64,000 nt of DNA from Halobaculum halobium (GTDB lineage: Archaea; Halobacteriota; Halobacteria; Halobacteriales; Haloferacaceae): assembly GCF_030127145.1 (NCBI RefSeq), contig NZ_CP126159.1, positions 248,001 through 312,000 on the forward strand. Reading direction: 5' to 3'. Every line of letters begins with the position of its first letter. The first letter of the stretch is position 1. Shown piece by piece: positions 45,752 through 57,519 of this stretch. The notes beneath the pieces were generated by a model. The model searched no databases, was not told where the DNA came from, and saw nothing but the letters and a program-made list of their open reading frames with translations. Both the position numbers and the translations under genes were made by a program.

Positions 45752-48496
45752 GTGACAGAGCCAAGCACGACTGAGGCGGCCAATTCATCCGGTCAACCAG
45801 CGTCGGGTAGCGACCACTCGTGGCACGCGGTGTCTGTCGACCGCGCACTGGAGCGCCTCGACACTGATACTACGGGACTTTCGTCGTCGGAGGTGGAGCG
45901 ACGGACCGGCGAGTACGGACCGAACACACTGCCGAAGGCGTCTCCTCCGTCAGCGCTGCGAGTGTTTGCTCGACAGTTCCGTAGCCCGCTGATCTACGTC
46001 CTCGCCGCCGCGGCACTCGTCTCGATCAGCGTCGGCGAGCGCACGGACGCGGGGTTCATCGTCGTCGTCCTTCTGGCGAACGCGCTGGTCGGCGGGGTCC
46101 AGGAGTGGCGTGCAGCACAGAGCACTCACGCGCTCCAACGCCTGCTCCGAACCCGAGCGACTGTCGTGCGCGACGACCGGACGGTCGAGGTCGACAGCGA
46201 AGTTGTCGTTCCGGGTGACATCGTTGTACTGGAGTCGGGGAGCGCCGTCCCGGCGGACGTACGGCTGATCGCGACGACCGGGTTGGAGACCGACGAGTCG
46301 ACGCTCACCGGTGAGTCGACGACGGTCGAAAAGGAAGCCACCTGGACGGGCGCCCCGTCGACGCCGCTTGCGGACCGACGGAATCTCGCGTTCGCGGGTA
46401 CGACTGTGGTTCGAGGTCGGGCGCGCGGTGTCGTCGTGGCAACGGGCGAGGACACGGCGGTCGGATCGCTGGCCGAGGACGTGTCCGCCCTCGGGGAGGG
46501 CCGCCCGCCGTTAGTACAGCGGATGCAGCGATTCACGCGCGCACTGGGCGCGGCTGTCGTGGGCGTTTCGCTGTTGGCGATCGGCTTCGGCGTCGTCGTC
46601 CGCGGGTTCGAGATCTCGACGATGGTCTTGTTCGGCGTCGCGCTCGCGGTCGCCGCCATCCCCGAGGGGCTCCCGGTCTCGATGACGGTCGCGCTCGGGG
46701 TGGCAACCAGACGAATGGCGGCGCTCGGCGTCATCGTCCGCCGCCTCGTCGCAGTCGAAGGGCTCGGAAGCTGTACCTATATCGCTACCGATAAGACCGG
46801 AACGATCACCGAGAATCGGCTCTCAGTGCGCCGGGTACGTCTACCCGGTGGCCAAACGCTGTCGATCGGTGAAGACGGTGAGACGGCCGATACCAGATCC
46901 AAGCGCAGCGATGAGTTGTCCCGACTCGCGGTCGCCGTGTCGTTGTGCAACGAGGGGAGCCTCGTAGCCGACGGTGAGGAGGTCACTCGGCGTGGTGACC
47001 CAACTGACACCGCCTTGCTCGCGTTTGCCCGCCGGTTCGACGTAACGGCAGATAGCGCGTCGGCGCGATATCCCCAGGTCGGCACGATCCCGTTCGAATC
47101 CGAGCGCGGGTACGCCGCTACGTACCACCGCGTCCCCGATGAGGAGACGGACGGAGACGGCGAGACTCTGGTGTTCGTCAAGGGAGCCCCTGAGCGGATC
47201 ATCGACATGTGCGAGTGGAACGACGACGGAGCGACCACCGGGACAGTGGGGACCGAGTCAGCGGCTCGCCGACGCGCGCTCGACGAGGCAACGGAACTCG
47301 CGGCAGACGGCTACCGCGTGCTCGCCGTCGCCGAGGGGCGTGTACACGGTCGGGTTCCGGACGATCCCTCGCTGGAACCACCGTCAGGGCTTCGGCTGCT
47401 CGGCTTCGTCGGGATGACCGATCCGCTTCGCTCGGGGGCCCGCGCCGCCGTCGAGTCTGCCCGTGCCGCGGGCATTCAGGTCGCGATGATCACCGGCGAC
47501 CACCCGGAGACTGCGCTGGCGATCGCTCGCGAACTCGGAATGGCGACGAGCCTCGACGAGGTCGTCACCGGCGCTGAGCTAGCTGCGATGGACGATGGCG
47601 AGGTCGCCGAAACCGTTCGGGTGACGTCTGTGTTCGCGCGGGTCGCTCCAGACCAGAAGTTGCGCATCGTCGCCGCCGCGAAAACGGCCGGACACTTCGT
47701 CGCAGTCACTGGCGACGGCGTGAACGACGCGCCGGCACTCCAGGCGGCGAACATCGGCATTGCGATGGGTAAAGACGGCACGGATGTCGCCCGCGATGCC
47801 GCCGAACTAGTACTCAGTGACGACAACTTCGCCACTATCGTCTCGGGGATCGAACAGGGACGCGTCGCCTACGACAACGTTCGAAAGGTGATCTACTTGC
47901 TCGTCTCGACGAACGCCGCTGAGGTCGTGCTCGTCCTACTCTCGCTGGCAGCCGGGCTCCCGCTCGCGCTTACAGCCGTCCAACTGCTGTGGCTCAATCT
48001 CGTCACCGAGGGGATGCAAGACGTCGCACTCGGATTCGAGCCGAAGGAAGACGACGTGCTCGAGCGTCCGCCACGCTCGCCCAGTGAACCGATATTCGAC
48101 AGACTCATGATCGAACGCACGGCCGTCAGCACGGGGTACATCGGGCTTGTCGGCTTTGCGACGTTCTCGTGGTTGCTCGCATCGGGCGCCAGCGCCCCCG
48201 AGGCTCGAAACGGGCTCCTCCTCTTGATGGTGCTGTTCGAGAACGCACAGGTCGGCAACAGCCGGTCTGAAACGCGTTCGGTGTTCCGGATCTCGCCGCT
48301 GTCGAACCCGTTTCTGCTCGCGGCCGCAGTCGGCGCACTCGTCGTCCACGCTGCGGCGTTGTACGTTCCGATCGCGCAGTCGGTGCTGGAGACGGCGCCC
48401 GTTTCTCTTGCTCACCTCTTGATGTATTTCGCGCTCGCCGGTGGGCTCCTCGTTGTGACAGAACTCCACAAGCACTGGTGGCAGTACAGACATTAA
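45752..48496 (+). CDS. P-type cation-transporting ATPase (type II, Ca/other cation)
   Basis: 914 residues from GTG 45752. Cytosolic N-domain (WHAVSVDRALERLDTD) and ten membrane segments. Motifs: TGES near 188-191, phosphorylated Asp347 in DKTGTIT, KGAPE in the N-domain, and GDGVNDAPALQAANIGIAMG from residue 654. PEGL in AIPEGLPVSMTVALG and the cation ATPase C-terminal domain place it in the type II group (SERCA/PMR1-like). Expected to expel Ca2+ or Mn2+, or move Na+/K+; the ion is not decided by sequence. A TATA-like ATAAAAATAA lies at 45678-45687. Confidence 0.92.
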   Translation: MTEPSTTEAANSSGQPASGSDHSWHAVSVDRALERLDTDTTGLSSSEVERRTGEYGPNTLPKASPPSALRVFARQFRSPLIYVLAAAALVSISVGERTDAGFIVVVLLANALVGGVQEWRAAQSTHALQRLLRTRATVVRDDRTVEVDSEVVVPGDIVVLESGSAVPADVRLIATTGLETDESTLTGESTTVEKEATWTGAPSTPLADRRNLAFAGTTVVRGRARGVVVATGEDTAVGSLAEDVSALGEGRPPLVQRMQRFTRALGAAVVGVSLLAIGFGVVVRGFEISTMVLFGVALAVAAIPEGLPVSMTVALGVATRRMAALGVIVRRLVAVEGLGSCTYIATDKTGTITENRLSVRRVRLPGGQTLSIGEDGETADTRSKRSDELSRLAVAVSLCNEGSLVADGEEVTRRGDPTDTALLAFARRFDVTADSASARYPQVGTIPFESERGYAATYHRVPDEETDGDGETLVFVKGAPERIIDMCEWNDDGATTGTVGTESAARRRALDEATELAADGYRVLAVAEGRVHGRVPDDPSLEPPSGLRLLGFVGMTDPLRSGARAAVESARAAGIQVAMITGDHPETALAIARELGMATSLDEVVTGAELAAMDDGEVAETVRVTSVFARVAPDQKLRIVAAAKTAGHFVAVTGDGVNDAPALQAANIGIAMGKDGTDVARDAAELVLSDDNFATIVSGIEQGRVAYDNVRKVIYLLVSTNAAEVVLVLLSLAAGLPLALTAVQLLWLNLVTEGMQDVALGFEPKEDDVLERPPRSPSEPIFDRLMIERTAVSTGYIGLVGFATFSWLLASGASAPEARNGLLLLMVLFENAQVGNSRSETRSVFRISPLSNPFLLAAAVGALVVHAAALYVPIAQSVLETAPVSLAHLLMYFALAGGLLVVTELHKHWWQYRH

Positions 48497-48604
48497 GCAC
48501 CGACCTGCCTGAGTATCGTCCCGATTTCGCGATCGTGGTGTTGGACGAACAATTCAATATGTCGGGAGTCAATAGAGTAGCGTCTCGAATTGTGCACCAT
48601 AGCT

Positions 48605-49237
48605 ATGTTTGACAACCGAACCGATGCTGGCGAGCGGTTGGCCGCCCTCCTCACCGAGCGCGAGATCGAAGCCGACATCGTGCTTGCGGTGCCGAGGGGT
48701 GGACTCCCGGCCGGTCGGGCGGTCGCCGACAGGCTCGCGGTCCCGCTCGATATCGTCTCCGCACGGAAGATCGGCGCGCCGTGGAACGCTGAACTGGCGG
48801 TCGGCGCCGTCGCCAGCGACGGCAGCGTCTGGCTCAACGACGCGCTCATCGACCAAGCCGGCATCGACGACGACTACATCGACGACCAGCGCGAACGCGA
48901 GCGGGCGGCTGCCCGCCAGCGCGTCGACAGCTACCGCGGCGACCGACCGCCGCTGGACCTGGACGGCAAGCGAGTCGTCGTCGTCGACGACGGCATCGCC
49001 ACGGGCGCCACGATGCGAGCCTGCCTCAGGCAGATCGCCGCCGCCGGTGCCGACCGGATCGTGCTGGCGGTTCCGGTCGCCCCGCCGGACACGCTGGAAC
49101 AACTCGAAGCGTGCGTCGACGAACTCGTCTGCGTGGAGGCGCCCGCAGACTTCGGCGCTGTCGGCCGGTTCTACCGCGCCTTCGATCAAGTCACCGACGA
49201 ACAAGCCCGTTCGTACCTCACCACCGATGACACCTGA
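48605..49237 (+). CDS. Phosphoribosyltransferase-family protein
   Basis: 210 residues from ATG 48605. PRTase type I fold: ADIVLAVPRGGLPAGRAVADRL, RKIGAPWNAELAVGAVASDG and the PRPP-binding loop VVVVDDGIATGATMRA (about 126-141). An inserted helical segment (DDYIDDQRERERAAARQRVDSY) between the flexible loop and the PRPP loop is typical of stand-alone PRTases that are fused to dienelactone hydrolase-like domains in bacteria. Role unknown; it may be a salvage or stress-linked enzyme. Its stop lies inside the first copy of a 26-bp tandem repeat leading to the halocyanin gene. Confidence 0.85.
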   Translation: MFDNRTDAGERLAALLTEREIEADIVLAVPRGGLPAGRAVADRLAVPLDIVSARKIGAPWNAELAVGAVASDGSVWLNDALIDQAGIDDDYIDDQRERERAAARQRVDSYRGDRPPLDLDGKRVVVVDDGIATGATMRACLRQIAAAGADRIVLAVPVAPPDTLEQLEACVDELVCVEAPADFGAVGRFYRAFDQVTDEQARSYLTTDDT

Positions 49238-49336
49238 CGCACCTCACCACCGATGACACCCGACGCACCTCACCACCGATGACACCCGACGCACCTCACC
49301 ACCGATGACACCCGACGCACCTCACCACCGATGACA
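49216..49336 (+). repeat. 26-bp tandem repeat (4 full copies plus 17 nt), linking two genes
   Basis: Copies begin at 49216, 49242, 49268 and 49294, with a partial copy at 49320. Copy 1 differs by one base (T for C), and that T creates the stop of the PRTase gene. Each unit contains an ATG (49227, 49253, 49279, 49305), and each frame reads the same nonapeptide MTPDAPHHR and ends in TGA that overlaps the next ATG as ATGA. The last TGA overlaps the halocyanin ATG at 49331. A 26-nt unit (27 minus 1) is exactly what such a coupled chain requires. Confidence 0.9.
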
Positions 49337-50023
49337 TCTCCCACGGATCGCGATCGACACAGCGCTCAGATCGCCGCCCAGCCGACGACCGCTCGCGAAG
49401 CGACCGCTGGGGAGTCTTCCAGACTGACCAGACGCGACGTCCTCGTCGGTGCGTTCGCGGGCGCTGGTGCCGTCGCAACCGGTGCAGCGACGACGCCGGC
49501 GAGCGCACAGGACGGATCAACTCGAACGATCGAGATGACTGATAACCTTGTGTTCGATCCCGACGAGGCAGCGGTCACCCCGGGAACGACCGTCGTCTGG
49601 GAGAACGTGGGTAACGTCGGTCACTCGGTGACAGCGTACGAGGAAGACCTCCCGGCGGACGCAGCGTACTTCGCCTCCGGCGGGTTCGAGTCGGAGGAAG
49701 CGGCGCGTTCGGCATACTCCTCGGGCGACCCGGAGAGCGGCGACGTTCCGGGCGGTGAGGCGTACGAGTACACGTTCGAGACGGAGGGAACGTACCCGTA
49801 CTTCTGTATCCCACACGAGAGCGTCGGAATGCTCGGCACGATCGAGGTGAGCGAAGACGCGGGTCAGACGGACGCACCGTCCGGTCCAGTGATCCCTGAT
49901 GTCCCCGACGTCGCGAAGACGCTCAGCTTGGTGATCTCGGCCACGCTGGTCGCGACGGTCGGCTTCGCGTACCTCTTCCTCAAATACGGCGGAGACTACG
50001 GAATCGATGAAGAGAGTGAGTGA
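49331..50023 (+). CDS. Halocyanin/plastocyanin-like copper protein, membrane-anchored
   Basis: 230 residues. Signal region with twin arginine (LTRRDVLVGAFAGAG, about 33-47) and ASAQ cleavage-like site. Blue-copper domain (about 60-165): VTPGTTVVWENVGNVGHSVTAY with the His ligand, then TYPYFCIPHESVGMLGTIEV with Cys, His and Met ligands, the typical HCHM set of type I copper. A long loop (about 100-135) is inserted. C-terminal membrane span (about 200-222) VISATLVATVGFAYLFL tethers it. Likely a membrane electron carrier. ATG is the fifth ATG of the preceding tandem repeat. Confidence 0.92.
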   Translation: MTSPTDRDRHSAQIAAQPTTAREATAGESSRLTRRDVLVGAFAGAGAVATGAATTPASAQDGSTRTIEMTDNLVFDPDEAAVTPGTTVVWENVGNVGHSVTAYEEDLPADAAYFASGGFESEEAARSAYSSGDPESGDVPGGEAYEYTFETEGTYPYFCIPHESVGMLGTIEVSEDAGQTDAPSGPVIPDVPDVAKTLSLVISATLVATVGFAYLFLKYGGDYGIDEESE

Positions 50024-50118
50024 CCCAGGGATCGAGAACGCACCGGCCCGCAGGGAGGCGGCCGCCCCGGCTAGCCGACCTCGGCTCTGTACGATTCCTC
50101 GGTTTCGATCGCTGTCGG

Positions 50119-50559
50119 TTACTCGATCTCGATCTCTCGCGATTCCTCAACGTCGGTTCGCGGGAGTGTGACGGTCAACACGCCATTTCGTATCTTCGCG
50201 GTCACGGCGTCCTTCTCGACCTCGGCCGGGAGGGTGATCGACCGCCGAACCGACTCGTGTCGGCGCTCGCGTCGCAGGACTCGCTCGTCGTCCTCGCGGG
50301 CTTCGGTCGATTCGTCGCGCTCGGCGGTGATCCGAAGGGTGTTGTCGGTGACGCTCACCGACACGTCCTCGCGGTCGAACCCCGGGAGGTCGACGGTCGC
50401 GACGAATTCGTCGTCGTACTCCACGAGGTCGATGGGGGCATGCTCCTCCTCGTCGACGAACTTCTCCCCGGACCACGAGCTCGTTGCCGCCTCGATCTGG
50501 CGGTTCATGCGCTCGATGAGCTGTTCCACGTCCTCGAATGGGTCGTTTCGCGATGACAT
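50119..50559 (-). CDS. Hsp20/alpha-crystallin small heat-shock protein
   Basis: 146 residues from ATG 50559. Alpha-crystallin domain (about 45-135): PIDLVEYDDEFVATVDLPGFDREDVSVSV, LRITAERDES, and VRRSITLPAEVEKDAVTAKIRNGVLTVTLPR, ending with the oligomerising IEI motif. Holdase chaperone in stress. Convergent with the halocyanin gene. Confidence 0.92.
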   Translation of the reverse strand: MSSRNDPFEDVEQLIERMNRQIEAATSSWSGEKFVDEEEHAPIDLVEYDDEFVATVDLPGFDREDVSVSVTDNTLRITAERDESTEAREDDERVLRRERRHESVRRSITLPAEVEKDAVTAKIRNGVLTVTLPRTDVEESREIEIE

Positions 50560-50744
50560 CTGGGATTCGTCTGTGCGTTCGTTGACCGTCGCAAAATACG
50601 CTCCGTCGATCGGACTGGCGTGACAACGACTGCGCTGCGGGTCTTGGCCGGCGCCGCACGGCGGGAAGCGTCGATACATACACGTCGCCGTGGCGCGTTT
50701 CTGTTGTACCTGCGGCGGATCTCGCCGCGAGGGACCGACTGCCC

Positions 50745-51521
50745 ATGTACGACTGCGATGCGATCGCCGCCGAGCTCAACGCCGCGGACGCAGACCCCAG
50801 GCTCGCCCCGGCGCACGTGCGGTGTCTCCCGAGCTCGGATGGCATGAGTGCCGTCCTCCTCATGGGTGTCGTCCACGATCACCCCGCAAGCGTGTTCCGG
50901 GTGTCATACCTCCTCGAGGCGTTCCCGCCGGACGTCCTCGCGGTCGAACTCCCGCCGCTGTCGGTGCCGTTGTTCCACCGCTACGCCCGCGACACACACA
51001 CGCCGCCGCGCCTCGGCGGCGAGATGAGCGCGGCAATTCGGGCCGCTGGTGACGCGCGCGTGGTCGGCGTCGACGCCCCGACCCGGCGGTACGTCCGCGC
51101 GCTGGTCGAGCGCCTCCGCGACGACCCGGATGCGCGGTCGATCGCGCGGACCGTTTTCGCGGATCTCGGTCGCGGACTCGTACAGGCAGGGGCGTGTCGG
51201 ATCGGCGCCGTCGTCGCCGCAGTCACCCCCTACACGCCTCGGGTCTACACACATATCGCCTACGAGGCGACGCTCCTCGACGACCCCGACACGCAGGCCG
51301 ACCACGAGTCGACCCACCTCGCACAGCACCGCGCGTTCGTGGGCGCGGTCGATCCCCCGCCAGAAACCGCGCTTGTCGACGACACGCGCGAGGAGGTGAT
51401 GGCCGCCCGCGTCGCCACGCTTCGACAATCTGGGGATGTCGCAGTCATCGTCGGGATGAGTCACCTCGACGGGCTCGAACGGCGCCTCAAGCGAGGCGAC
51501 CCGGCCCCCAATAAACGGTAG
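50745..51521 (+). CDS. TraB/GumN-type family protein
   Basis: 258 residues. VLLMGVVHDHPASVFRVSYL (about 38-57) has the GxxH...E-like start, LAVELPPLSVPLF the second strand and, near the end, VAVIVGMSHLDGLERRL, the closing histidine motif. TraB-fold proteins are suspected metalloproteases or pheromone-processing regulators; the function in archaea is unknown. No membrane segment is clear, though the central GAVVAAVTPYTPRVYT stretch is mildly hydrophobic. Isolated, same strand as the next hypothetical gene. Confidence 0.75.
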   Translation: MYDCDAIAAELNAADADPRLAPAHVRCLPSSDGMSAVLLMGVVHDHPASVFRVSYLLEAFPPDVLAVELPPLSVPLFHRYARDTHTPPRLGGEMSAAIRAAGDARVVGVDAPTRRYVRALVERLRDDPDARSIARTVFADLGRGLVQAGACRIGAVVAAVTPYTPRVYTHIAYEATLLDDPDTQADHESTHLAQHRAFVGAVDPPPETALVDDTREEVMAARVATLRQSGDVAVIVGMSHLDGLERRLKRGDPAPNKR

Positions 51522-51658
51522 CACAGTCAATGGCCCGCGGCTATGTGGTGAGCGATCGATCCTTTGGTCGACATGTCGACCAGTAACTGGTGGCACGGAC
51601 GCGGTCGGCGGCACCACTCCGGGGGGCCACACCAGCAACACACCGGAAGCCCACACCG

Positions 51659-51985
51659 ATGACCACGCAACACGGGAATACCGACGGATGGAAACGACTG
51701 GTGACGACCAACGGGCTCCCGATCGGGTGGGCCCGCCGGGGCAGCGACGACGAGTGGTACGTCAGGCCGAAGCCTGGACTGTTGCGGGGATGCGACTCGT
51801 GGATTGCCCCTTCGTGGCGCGATCGGGGACGGCTCACGATCGACCCGTCTGTGATCGTCGGGGAGGGTGAGGGAACTGTCGTGCTCGCAACCGGCTCGGA
51901 GCCGGAATCGCTGCTCGGAGGTGATACGGACGATGACGACTCTGTCGACGATACGACTGAGCGACCGCCGGATATTCAGCCCTGA
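51659..51985 (+). CDS. Hypothetical acidic protein (108 aa)
   Basis: From ATG 51659. The first 80 residues contain WKRLVTTNGLPIGWARRGSD and WYVRPKPGLLRGCDSWIAP, Trp/Arg-rich and possibly a small folded domain; the tail is strongly acidic (TDDDDSVDDTTE). I do not recognise a family. Composition is haloarchaeal and the ATG has a short upstream gap from the TraB-like gene, so it is probably real. Confidence 0.55.
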   Translation: MTTQHGNTDGWKRLVTTNGLPIGWARRGSDDEWYVRPKPGLLRGCDSWIAPSWRDRGRLTIDPSVIVGEGEGTVVLATGSEPESLLGGDTDDDDSVDDTTERPPDIQP

Positions 51986-52083
51986 CCTGTCGGCAGAACC
52001 GCCTGGGATCGTACGGTTCGGCGTGGCAAAGAAGTCGGCGGCGTTCGTTGATCCGGCCGTTCAGCGGTTCTCGATGCCGGATT

Positions 52084-52326
52084 CTAGAGGTTCTTTTTGA
52101 GCCTGACCTCGTCGGACCCGATATCGTCGACCCTGGAGGTGCGGAGTTCGTACGTCTCCTCGCCTTCCTCGGCCCAACCGAGGCGTCGTCGAACGCTCTG
52201 TGAGAGACCCATCGACGGTTTCACGTGCGCCATCGACCCGGACGTCTGATCGATCGTGCCGATCTCGTCGCCGTCGGCAGTTACCACGCGCTTCCCCTCG
52301 TCTTCGGCCCTGAAGTTTCGTGTCAT
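52084..52326 (-). CDS. PRC-barrel-like domain protein
   Basis: 80 residues from ATG 52326. Starts with TRNFRAEDEGKRVVTADGDEIGTIDQ, the PRC-barrel entry pattern, then a strand-rich central part and YELRTSRVDDIGSDEVRLKKNL. Small single-domain PRC proteins are common in haloarchaea; some are linked to division or RNA processing. The earlier in-frame starts give a basic lead absent from relatives. Confidence 0.75.
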   Translation of the reverse strand: MTRNFRAEDEGKRVVTADGDEIGTIDQTSGSMAHVKPSMGLSQSVRRRLGWAEEGEETYELRTSRVDDIGSDEVRLKKNL

Positions 52327-52610
52327 GTGTGCTGATACTCGTTGGGTTCTCCGTTCGATCCCACGTCGCAGGACGCCGGCAGCCGGGTTCGATGTTCGAC
52401 CGACCGACATCCTAATTGTCACCGTCCTTGAATATGAACGCTGACCATCGGAGTCGAACGCGTTCAAGTCGGGGCGGACTTCCGGCGTGCTCCCGGCACG
52501 TTGAGATCGTACAGATCAGTTATGTCTCTCCTCGTAGCGCTATCATGTCCGGTTCGTAGCCGTCGCTACCAGGGTCTTTCACCGGTGACAGCGAACGCTC
52601 AGCCGCACGA

Positions 52611-56208: not shown

Positions 56209-57519
56209 CTATTCATCCGGTCGTCGGTAGGCAAGCCAGCCCAGCAACAGCGACATCGAGACGACGACGCTCGCGGCTCCGAACCCGGGGGCGGATCCGG
56301 CGGTCGTACCAGTCTGGACTTCGGAGACGTGCGTCTCTTCGGTGTCGGAATCAGTTAGGGTCGCGGCCGGCGTATCAGTCTGCGTCGCAGTGGCCGTCGG
56401 TGCTGGCGTCGGCGGTACGGTGGTGTTGGTCGAACCGTTCGTGGCGGTAATCGTCTCGGTGGCAGTTGCGTTGGCCGTCGTATTTCCAGTGCCGTTGGCA
56501 GCTTGAACCGTCACGTTACCGACGACCGTCGAATTAAGCTTCACGGCGTAGACACCGGGCGAGTCGAACCGGACGGTGAAGCTCACCCGCCGCTGTTCTT
56601 GCTCGGGAATCTCGACGGCTGTGTTCTCACCCATCGCTGTCCCGTTGCTGTACACGCTGGTCTCGAAGGTCCCGTCGTCGTCACCTTCGTTTTCGACGAT
56701 GCCCGACACATTGACCGGTTCACCGGGTGCGACCGACGTCCGGTTGAGCGAGGTTCCCACGATGGAGAACAGGGGTTCGGGCGGTGCGCTAGCGTCGCCG
56801 CCGCCACCGCCGCCACTGCCGCTGCTACCACCGCCGCTGTTGCCGTTGTCGTCGTTGTCGCTATCCTCGTTGCTCCTCTCGTCGGTCCCGGTATCCTCTG
56901 GGGTAGCGGTTTGTGTCGGCGTTGGGGTCTGGGTCGGCGTTGGCGTCTGGGTTGGTTCTGGAGTCTGGGTCGACGTTGGCGTCTGAGTCGGTGTCGAAGT
57001 TGCCGAGTCGGTATCGACCGCCAGCTCGACGCTGTTGAACGCCCCCGGCGAGACGCTCTCCCCGTCGCCGCCGGAGAGTTTCGTGTCGGCTTCGACGAAC
57101 GTCAGCTGCGTGGAGCCGGTGGCGTCCTCGGAGACGGTGAGCTTCAGTTCTGCGAGTACGGGATCGTTCGTTTCCTCGGGTCGGAGCTGATTGAACGCCA
57201 CCCAGCCACCGTCGTTGTTCACGTTCACAACCGGGTTCTCGAAGTCGTCGCTCCCGGAGACGCTGTCGACGGTCACGACACTGGGATCGAACGTGAGGTT
57301 CGCCTGGTAGCCACGCACCGCCGTCGCGTTGGCCCAGACATGCACAGTGACCGTGTCACCGGGAGCTGCGTCGATGGTACCGTCGGGGGACCCAGTAACC
57401 GTGTCATCGGCCGAAATTGCGTCTGCAGACACCGGGGTAACTGCGGCGACTACCATCGGAAGCGTGCCGACGACAACGATCAGGGCGGCCACGACGACGA
57501 TCCCCCCACCGTCTCTCAT
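56209..57519 (-). CDS. Cohesin-domain surface protein with PGF-CTERM anchor
   Basis: 436 residues. Order: hydrophobic signal (about 7-30); a cohesin-like domain at about 35-170 (TVTVHVWANATAVRGYQANLTFDP and AELKLTVSEDATGS, the repeated strand pattern of cohesin modules); a Thr/Pro stalk of TPTQTP repeats (about 175-205); Asp/Asn and Gly/Ser runs; a CARDB-like domain (about 248-345); a Thr/Asn-rich stretch; and a C-terminal sorting signal with PGFGAASVV, a hydrophobic span and RRPDE, the PGF-CTERM arrangement recognised by archaeosortase. Gene overlaps the dockerin-bearing phosphoesterase by 4 bp (ATGA). Probably a surface scaffold holding that enzyme. Confidence 0.8.
   Translation of the reverse strand: MRDGGGIVVVAALIVVVGTLPMVVAAVTPVSADAISADDTVTGSPDGTIDAAPGDTVTVHVWANATAVRGYQANLTFDPSVVTVDSVSGSDDFENPVVNVNNDGGWVAFNQLRPEETNDPVLAELKLTVSEDATGSTQLTFVEADTKLSGGDGESVSPGAFNSVELAVDTDSATSTPTQTPTSTQTPEPTQTPTPTQTPTPTQTATPEDTGTDERSNEDSDNDDNGNSGGGSSGSGGGGGGDASAPPEPLFSIVGTSLNRTSVAPGEPVNVSGIVENEGDDDGTFETSVYSNGTAMGENTAVEIPEQEQRRVSFTVRFDSPGVYAVKLNSTVVGNVTVQAANGTGNTTANATATETITATNGSTNTTVPPTPAPTATATQTDTPAATLTDSDTEETHVSEVQTGTTAGSAPGFGAASVVVSMSLLLGWLAYRRPDE

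Follow-up and report, generated by a model that had tools for sequence, protein, structure and literature searches.

A 26-bp tandem array forming a chain of coupled micro-ORFs between a phosphoribosyltransferase gene and a halocyanin gene in Halobaculum halobium

Introduction

A short tandem array lies between a phosphoribosyltransferase (PRTase) gene and the gene of a halocyanin-type blue copper protein in the archaeon Halobaculum halobium, and each of its units carries a start codon from which the same nine residues are read. How does the ribosome reach the halocyanin start across such a junction, and is the array a device that sets expression or an accident that the cell tolerates? The original prediction for this locus proposed that the number of copies could tune reinitiation, and with it the ratio of the two proteins, and gave a neutral product of slippage as its alternative. 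The window analysed here is the 64,000-nt stretch from position 248,001 to 312,000 of NZ_CP126159.1. It sits on a contig of 463,690 bases (C2) in a genome of 3.46 Mb assembled in three contigs.

Results

The two flanking genes

The upstream gene (48605–49237, plus strand) encodes a PRTase of 210 amino acids (Pfam PF00156, E 6.7e-21), which is 81% identical to its relative in another Halobaculum genome (G005). The downstream gene (49331–50023, plus strand) encodes a protein of 230 amino acids with a match to Pfam PF00127 (E 2.1e-15); its match to TIGR03102, at E 3.6e-12, is under that model's curated cut-off. Residues 34 and 35 are two arginines, which we take to be a twin-arginine motif. The halocyanin ORF is intact, and no earlier in-frame ATG, GTG or TTG was found upstream of 49331. 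Nine matches to this halocyanin, itself included, were found in the genome. Compared with G005, both genes look constrained, with dN/dS of 0.13/0.53 for the PRTase and 0.10/0.77 for the halocyanin from residue 61 on; the divergence behind these values may be mostly older than the array, so that they may not cover the function of the halocyanin after the expansion. A cluster at 45752–52467 contains, with the PRTase gene, genes for a Ca-type P-type ATPase, an HSP20 protein and two presumed TraB-like and PRC-like proteins.

Architecture of the array

The array was delimited by TRF at 49215–49336 on the plus strand, with a period of 26 bp, 4.7 copies, 98% matches, zero indels and a score of 237. 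It is thus a tandem array of near-identical units of the kind seen in variable-number tandem repeats (VNTRs). Its 5′ edge lies inside the end of the PRTase gene and its 3′ edge inside the start of the halocyanin gene, the fifth copy being partial (18 nt). There are five ATGs, at 49227, 49253, 49279, 49305 and 49331. The first four open micro-ORFs of nine codons each, all reading MTPDAPHHR, and every TGA overlaps the following ATG in the word ATGA. Micro-ORF 1 (49227–49256) begins in an 11-nt overlap with the PRTase stop, and its ATG corresponds, by comparison with G005, to the halocyanin start in that genome; micro-ORFs 2 (49253–49282) and 3 (49279–49308) are ATGA-coupled at both ends, and the TGA of micro-ORF 4 (49305–49334) overlaps the halocyanin ATG (ATGA at 49331–49334). 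The stop/start overlap that marks coupled gene pairs is therefore present as four −4 overlaps in series, preceded by a first step, the 11-nt overlap, which is longer than the common classes (−4, −1 and −8).

Copies 2–4 are identical to one another and contain CCCGAC, whereas copy 1 has CCTGAC; the T found only in this copy makes the PRTase stop codon (TGA, 49235–49237). The array places the halocyanin start 93 nt past the PRTase stop, as against the 11-nt overlap of G005. This architecture bears out the original prediction, which had described a 26-bp repeat with four ATGA-coupled MTPDAPHHR ORFs, the fifth ATG as the halocyanin start and one base of copy 1 as the source of the PRTase stop; its coordinates hold except for the first base, which it had put at 49216 instead of 49215.

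How unusual the repeat and the chain are

The 19-nt core of the unit, with up to three mismatches allowed, matches the window at six sites, five of which lie in the array, whereas 100 shuffles gave an expectation of 0.03. In 743,690 bases of the same genome, seven of the 146 selected arrays have at least 2.8 copies and only this one forms a coupled chain. The chain itself is easily obtained. In a simulation, 30% of the ATG-bearing 26-mers drawn at random from this genome formed one, and units drawn from the same genome with periods of 3k or 3k+1 gave none; for this geometry it is enough that the unit has a length of 3k−1 and contains an NTGA word that no stop precedes. The minus strand of the array (49215–49336) also reads as a chain, GTGA-linked, of the peptide VRCVGCHRW (VRCVRCHRW in the final copy), a warning that chains and suggestive motifs arise freely. 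As a repeat the array is beyond chance; as a coupled chain it is much less so, and the chain alone gives no evidence of selection.

The same 743,690 bases were searched for further chains of identical coupled peptides. The array itself was matched, on both strands, and no other chain was found among the 42 equal-length coupled pairs examined; nor was there any among 25 pairs examined from 89 other loci, which total 461,926 bases and in part overlap one another. The idea that such chains are a common device is unsupported, as neither search gave a second case.

Origin of the array

Relatives were compared with one genome per species. A PRTase at E 1e-60 or better is present in six of the 11 Halobaculum genomes, and among 30 fetched PRTase loci (L032–L061) the halocyanin gene adjoins it only at the present locus and in G005; a widespread PRTase–halocyanin operon is ruled out by this count. 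In another genome of the genus (G009), genes for HSP20 and the TraB-like and PRC-like proteins come after the PRTase gene, without a halocyanin gene, and in a 16-kb stretch of G005 only the PRTase and the halocyanin match the cluster described above.

In G005 the gene pair is present and the array is absent. The halocyanin ATG occupies the position of the first array ATG, in an 11-nt overlap with the PRTase stop, and the junction keeps the flank ACCGATG...CTGACG, including the T of copy 1. At up to three mismatches, the unit was detected in one of 170 genomes of the family, that of H. halobium, and was absent from the 169 others searched. Since G005 shows the overlap without the repeat, and since the unit is missing from those 169 genomes, the simplest reading of the array is a lineage-specific expansion at a junction that would have been overlapping ancestrally. 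The T shared by copy 1 and G005, together with the C shared by copies 2–4, points to a likely order of events: duplication, change of T to C, then amplification. The partial fifth copy indicates that the first duplication would not have been a simple copying of one unit; its course was not recovered from the G005 alignment, the N-termini of the two halocyanins being too divergent.

Transcription signals and RNA structure

In a crude scan for AT content, the highest proportion of A/T around the PRTase start was in AATTCAATAT (48551–48560, plus strand; 8/9 A/T), which is likely the TATA region of a transcript that would carry both genes. The same scan gave no TATA-like AT-rich stretch in 48610–49331, where the best 9-mer has 6/9 A/T compared with 8/9 upstream of the PRTase gene. 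No Shine–Dalgarno (SD) match longer than 3 nt precedes any of the five array ATGs. A bacterial promoter scan returned no sigma-70-type site, a result that is uninformative for archaea.

The array RNA has a predicted folding energy of −2.2 kcal/mol, weaker than that of all 400 random 104-mers from the same contig (mean −37.8). This low structure is due to the G-poor composition, and compared with shuffled sequences the array is not more structured (z 0.28 with flanks, z 1.15 alone); RNA structure as its function was rejected on this ground. An unstructured array RNA would aid a relay of ribosomes, and it would equally aid direct initiation.

Discussion

A reinitiation relay as the favoured explanation

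The explanation that we favour, and hold to be probable though far from certain, is that the array is a slippage minisatellite formed at an overlapping junction and tolerated because its 3k−1 period preserves coupling through a relay of reinitiation, with halocyanin output probably lowered. Replication slippage would have set in at a junction whose halocyanin start and PRTase stop codons were already overlapping. An initial duplication of this start region would have been followed by a T-to-C change in the second copy, and amplification of the C-type unit would have produced four extra ATGs. Each added 26-nt unit with its ATGA would bring one more nine-codon ORF, its stop overlapping the next start. 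A ribosome terminating on the PRTase gene would thus be handed on through one step at the 11-nt overlap and four steps at 4-nt overlaps, the relay replacing a 93-nt gap that would otherwise uncouple the two genes. Halocyanin output would probably fall, as the efficiencies of the successive steps multiply. On this best reading the array looks like a copying accident, tolerated and not necessarily selected.

Work on Haloferax volcanii bears on the relay from both sides. Reinitiation was lost, or nearly so, at an intergenic distance of 22–23 nt in all three pairs tested in a double-reporter assay (PMC10666635), the downstream gene needed translation of the upstream one in nine of nine pairs, and reinitiation survived removal of the SD motif in all seven pairs (PMC6728339). 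Without a relay of ribosomes along the ATGA chain, a gap of 93 nt should thus break the coupling of the two genes, and the chain is the most plausible ribosome route across it. With no TATA-like stretch detected in 48610–49331 and no SD before the five ATGs, a relay is also the simplest way to keep the halocyanin translated. Against it, the gap of +93 nt falls inside the range of +50 to +150 nt in which H. volcanii pairs are mostly regarded as being transcribed separately (PMC10666635).

Alternative readings

That spacing is one argument for the reading that comes next, to which we give a minor though appreciable share of belief: the array is neutral and carries no relay, the halocyanin being translated apart from the PRTase or hardly expressed at all. 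Translation could then begin on a transcript with its own start or by direct initiation within the array, whose weakly folding RNA could be a landing zone, and with nine halocyanin matches in the genome the loss of one might be tolerated. This reading is opposed by the crude AT scan, in which nothing promoter-like appeared between the PRTase start and the halocyanin ATG, by the missing SD motifs and by the intact halocyanin ORF. A miscounted copy number is very improbable. Short arrays can suffer such errors in assembly, but this one spans only 122 nt, its first copy is distinct from copies 2–4 and the assembly consists of just three contigs.

The original prediction went further and saw in the array a variable-number expression device. 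We regard as unlikely both a relay of five reinitiation steps in which copy number would set a graded, heritable ratio of halocyanin to PRTase and, to the same degree, frequent slippage with copy number selected as a rheostat for that ratio. The geometry speaks for such a device, as gain or loss of whole units preserves both proteins and their coupling, and so does the fact that this is the sole coupled chain among the 146 arrays selected from 744 kb, only seven of which reach 2.8 copies. Against it stand the sister genome G005 without the array, the absence of the unit from the rest of the family and the ease with which chains arise as by-products, also in antisense. The nonapeptide might instead act itself, for instance as a copper-responsive leader with a logic like that of CruR in Bordetella, a reading to which we attach almost no credence. 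Four perfect copies precede the gene of a copper protein, two histidines stand near the end of the peptide, and metal-sensing upstream ORFs are known (PMC9426467). As recent copies of DNA, however, the four peptides cannot show conservation. The peptide has three rare codons (ACA, GCA and CCT) and a codon adaptation of 0.33, lower than in any of the 201 nine-codon segments of the PRTase gene and than in 201 of the 221 of the halocyanin gene; G005 has nothing similar (MQTDDYSRRAG). Selection on the nonapeptide was accordingly set aside, the identical copies being uninformative and the codon adaptation low.

The original prediction therefore stands in its geometry, and the Haloferax data make its relay plausible; its variable-number device is unsupported, given G005, the 169 family genomes, the rare codons and the chain as a common by-product. 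Its own alternative, a neutral product of slippage, fits better, with the addition that slippage would have acted on a start and stop that already overlapped ancestrally.

Comparison with known systems

VNTR and phase-variation loci likewise place a short tandem array at the start of a gene and can gain or lose whole units, but those loci shift the reading frame or the promoter spacing, whereas each unit of the present array adds a coupled ORF. The bicistronic designs of synthetic biology share with it the short leader ORF before a target gene and translational coupling; the array differs in being natural, in having four leaders in series and in being fed by an upstream gene. The termination–reinitiation pairs of H. 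volcanii and Escherichia coli (Huber et al. 2019, 2023) are alike in ATGA overlaps, genes of the same direction, a haloarchaeal host and a dispensable SD motif. Their coupling is one step between two genes, while the array would comprise up to five serial steps through four identical nine-codon ORFs. The CruR upstream ORF, also short, likewise precedes genes of copper biology; MTPDAPHHR has neither the CXXC motif nor the C-terminal RAPP-type arrest motif given for CruR (PMC9426467). The parts of the haloarchaeal literature examined contain no demonstration of serial reinitiation across several micro-ORFs, and no system combining a tandem repeat with translational coupling or reinitiation was found in the literature searched.

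The array offers a natural series with which to ask how many times in succession a haloarchaeal ribosome can reinitiate, and it illustrates how coupled genes may be moved apart by tandem duplication and yet stay coupled. Should the relay work, removal of the units one by one would yield the efficiency of reinitiation per step; if it fails, the array shows how easily chains of micro-ORFs arise from 3k−1 repeats.

Other repeats in the genome

Three further repeats were noted. Within the window, overlapping tandem repeats of 9, 12, 15, 18 and 36 bp occupy 56796–56992, probably inside a coding region. Outside it, the sample contains one other well-conserved array whose period exceeds 10 and is not divisible by three. 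This array lies at C1:166655–166720, has three copies of 22 bp with 93% matches and looks intergenic by eye. Also outside the window, but on its contig, a tandem duplication of 378 bp (91%) spans C2:318967–319679; its minus-strand consensus resembles, by eye, the copper-site region of a halocyanin, and it possibly encodes a two-domain copper protein.
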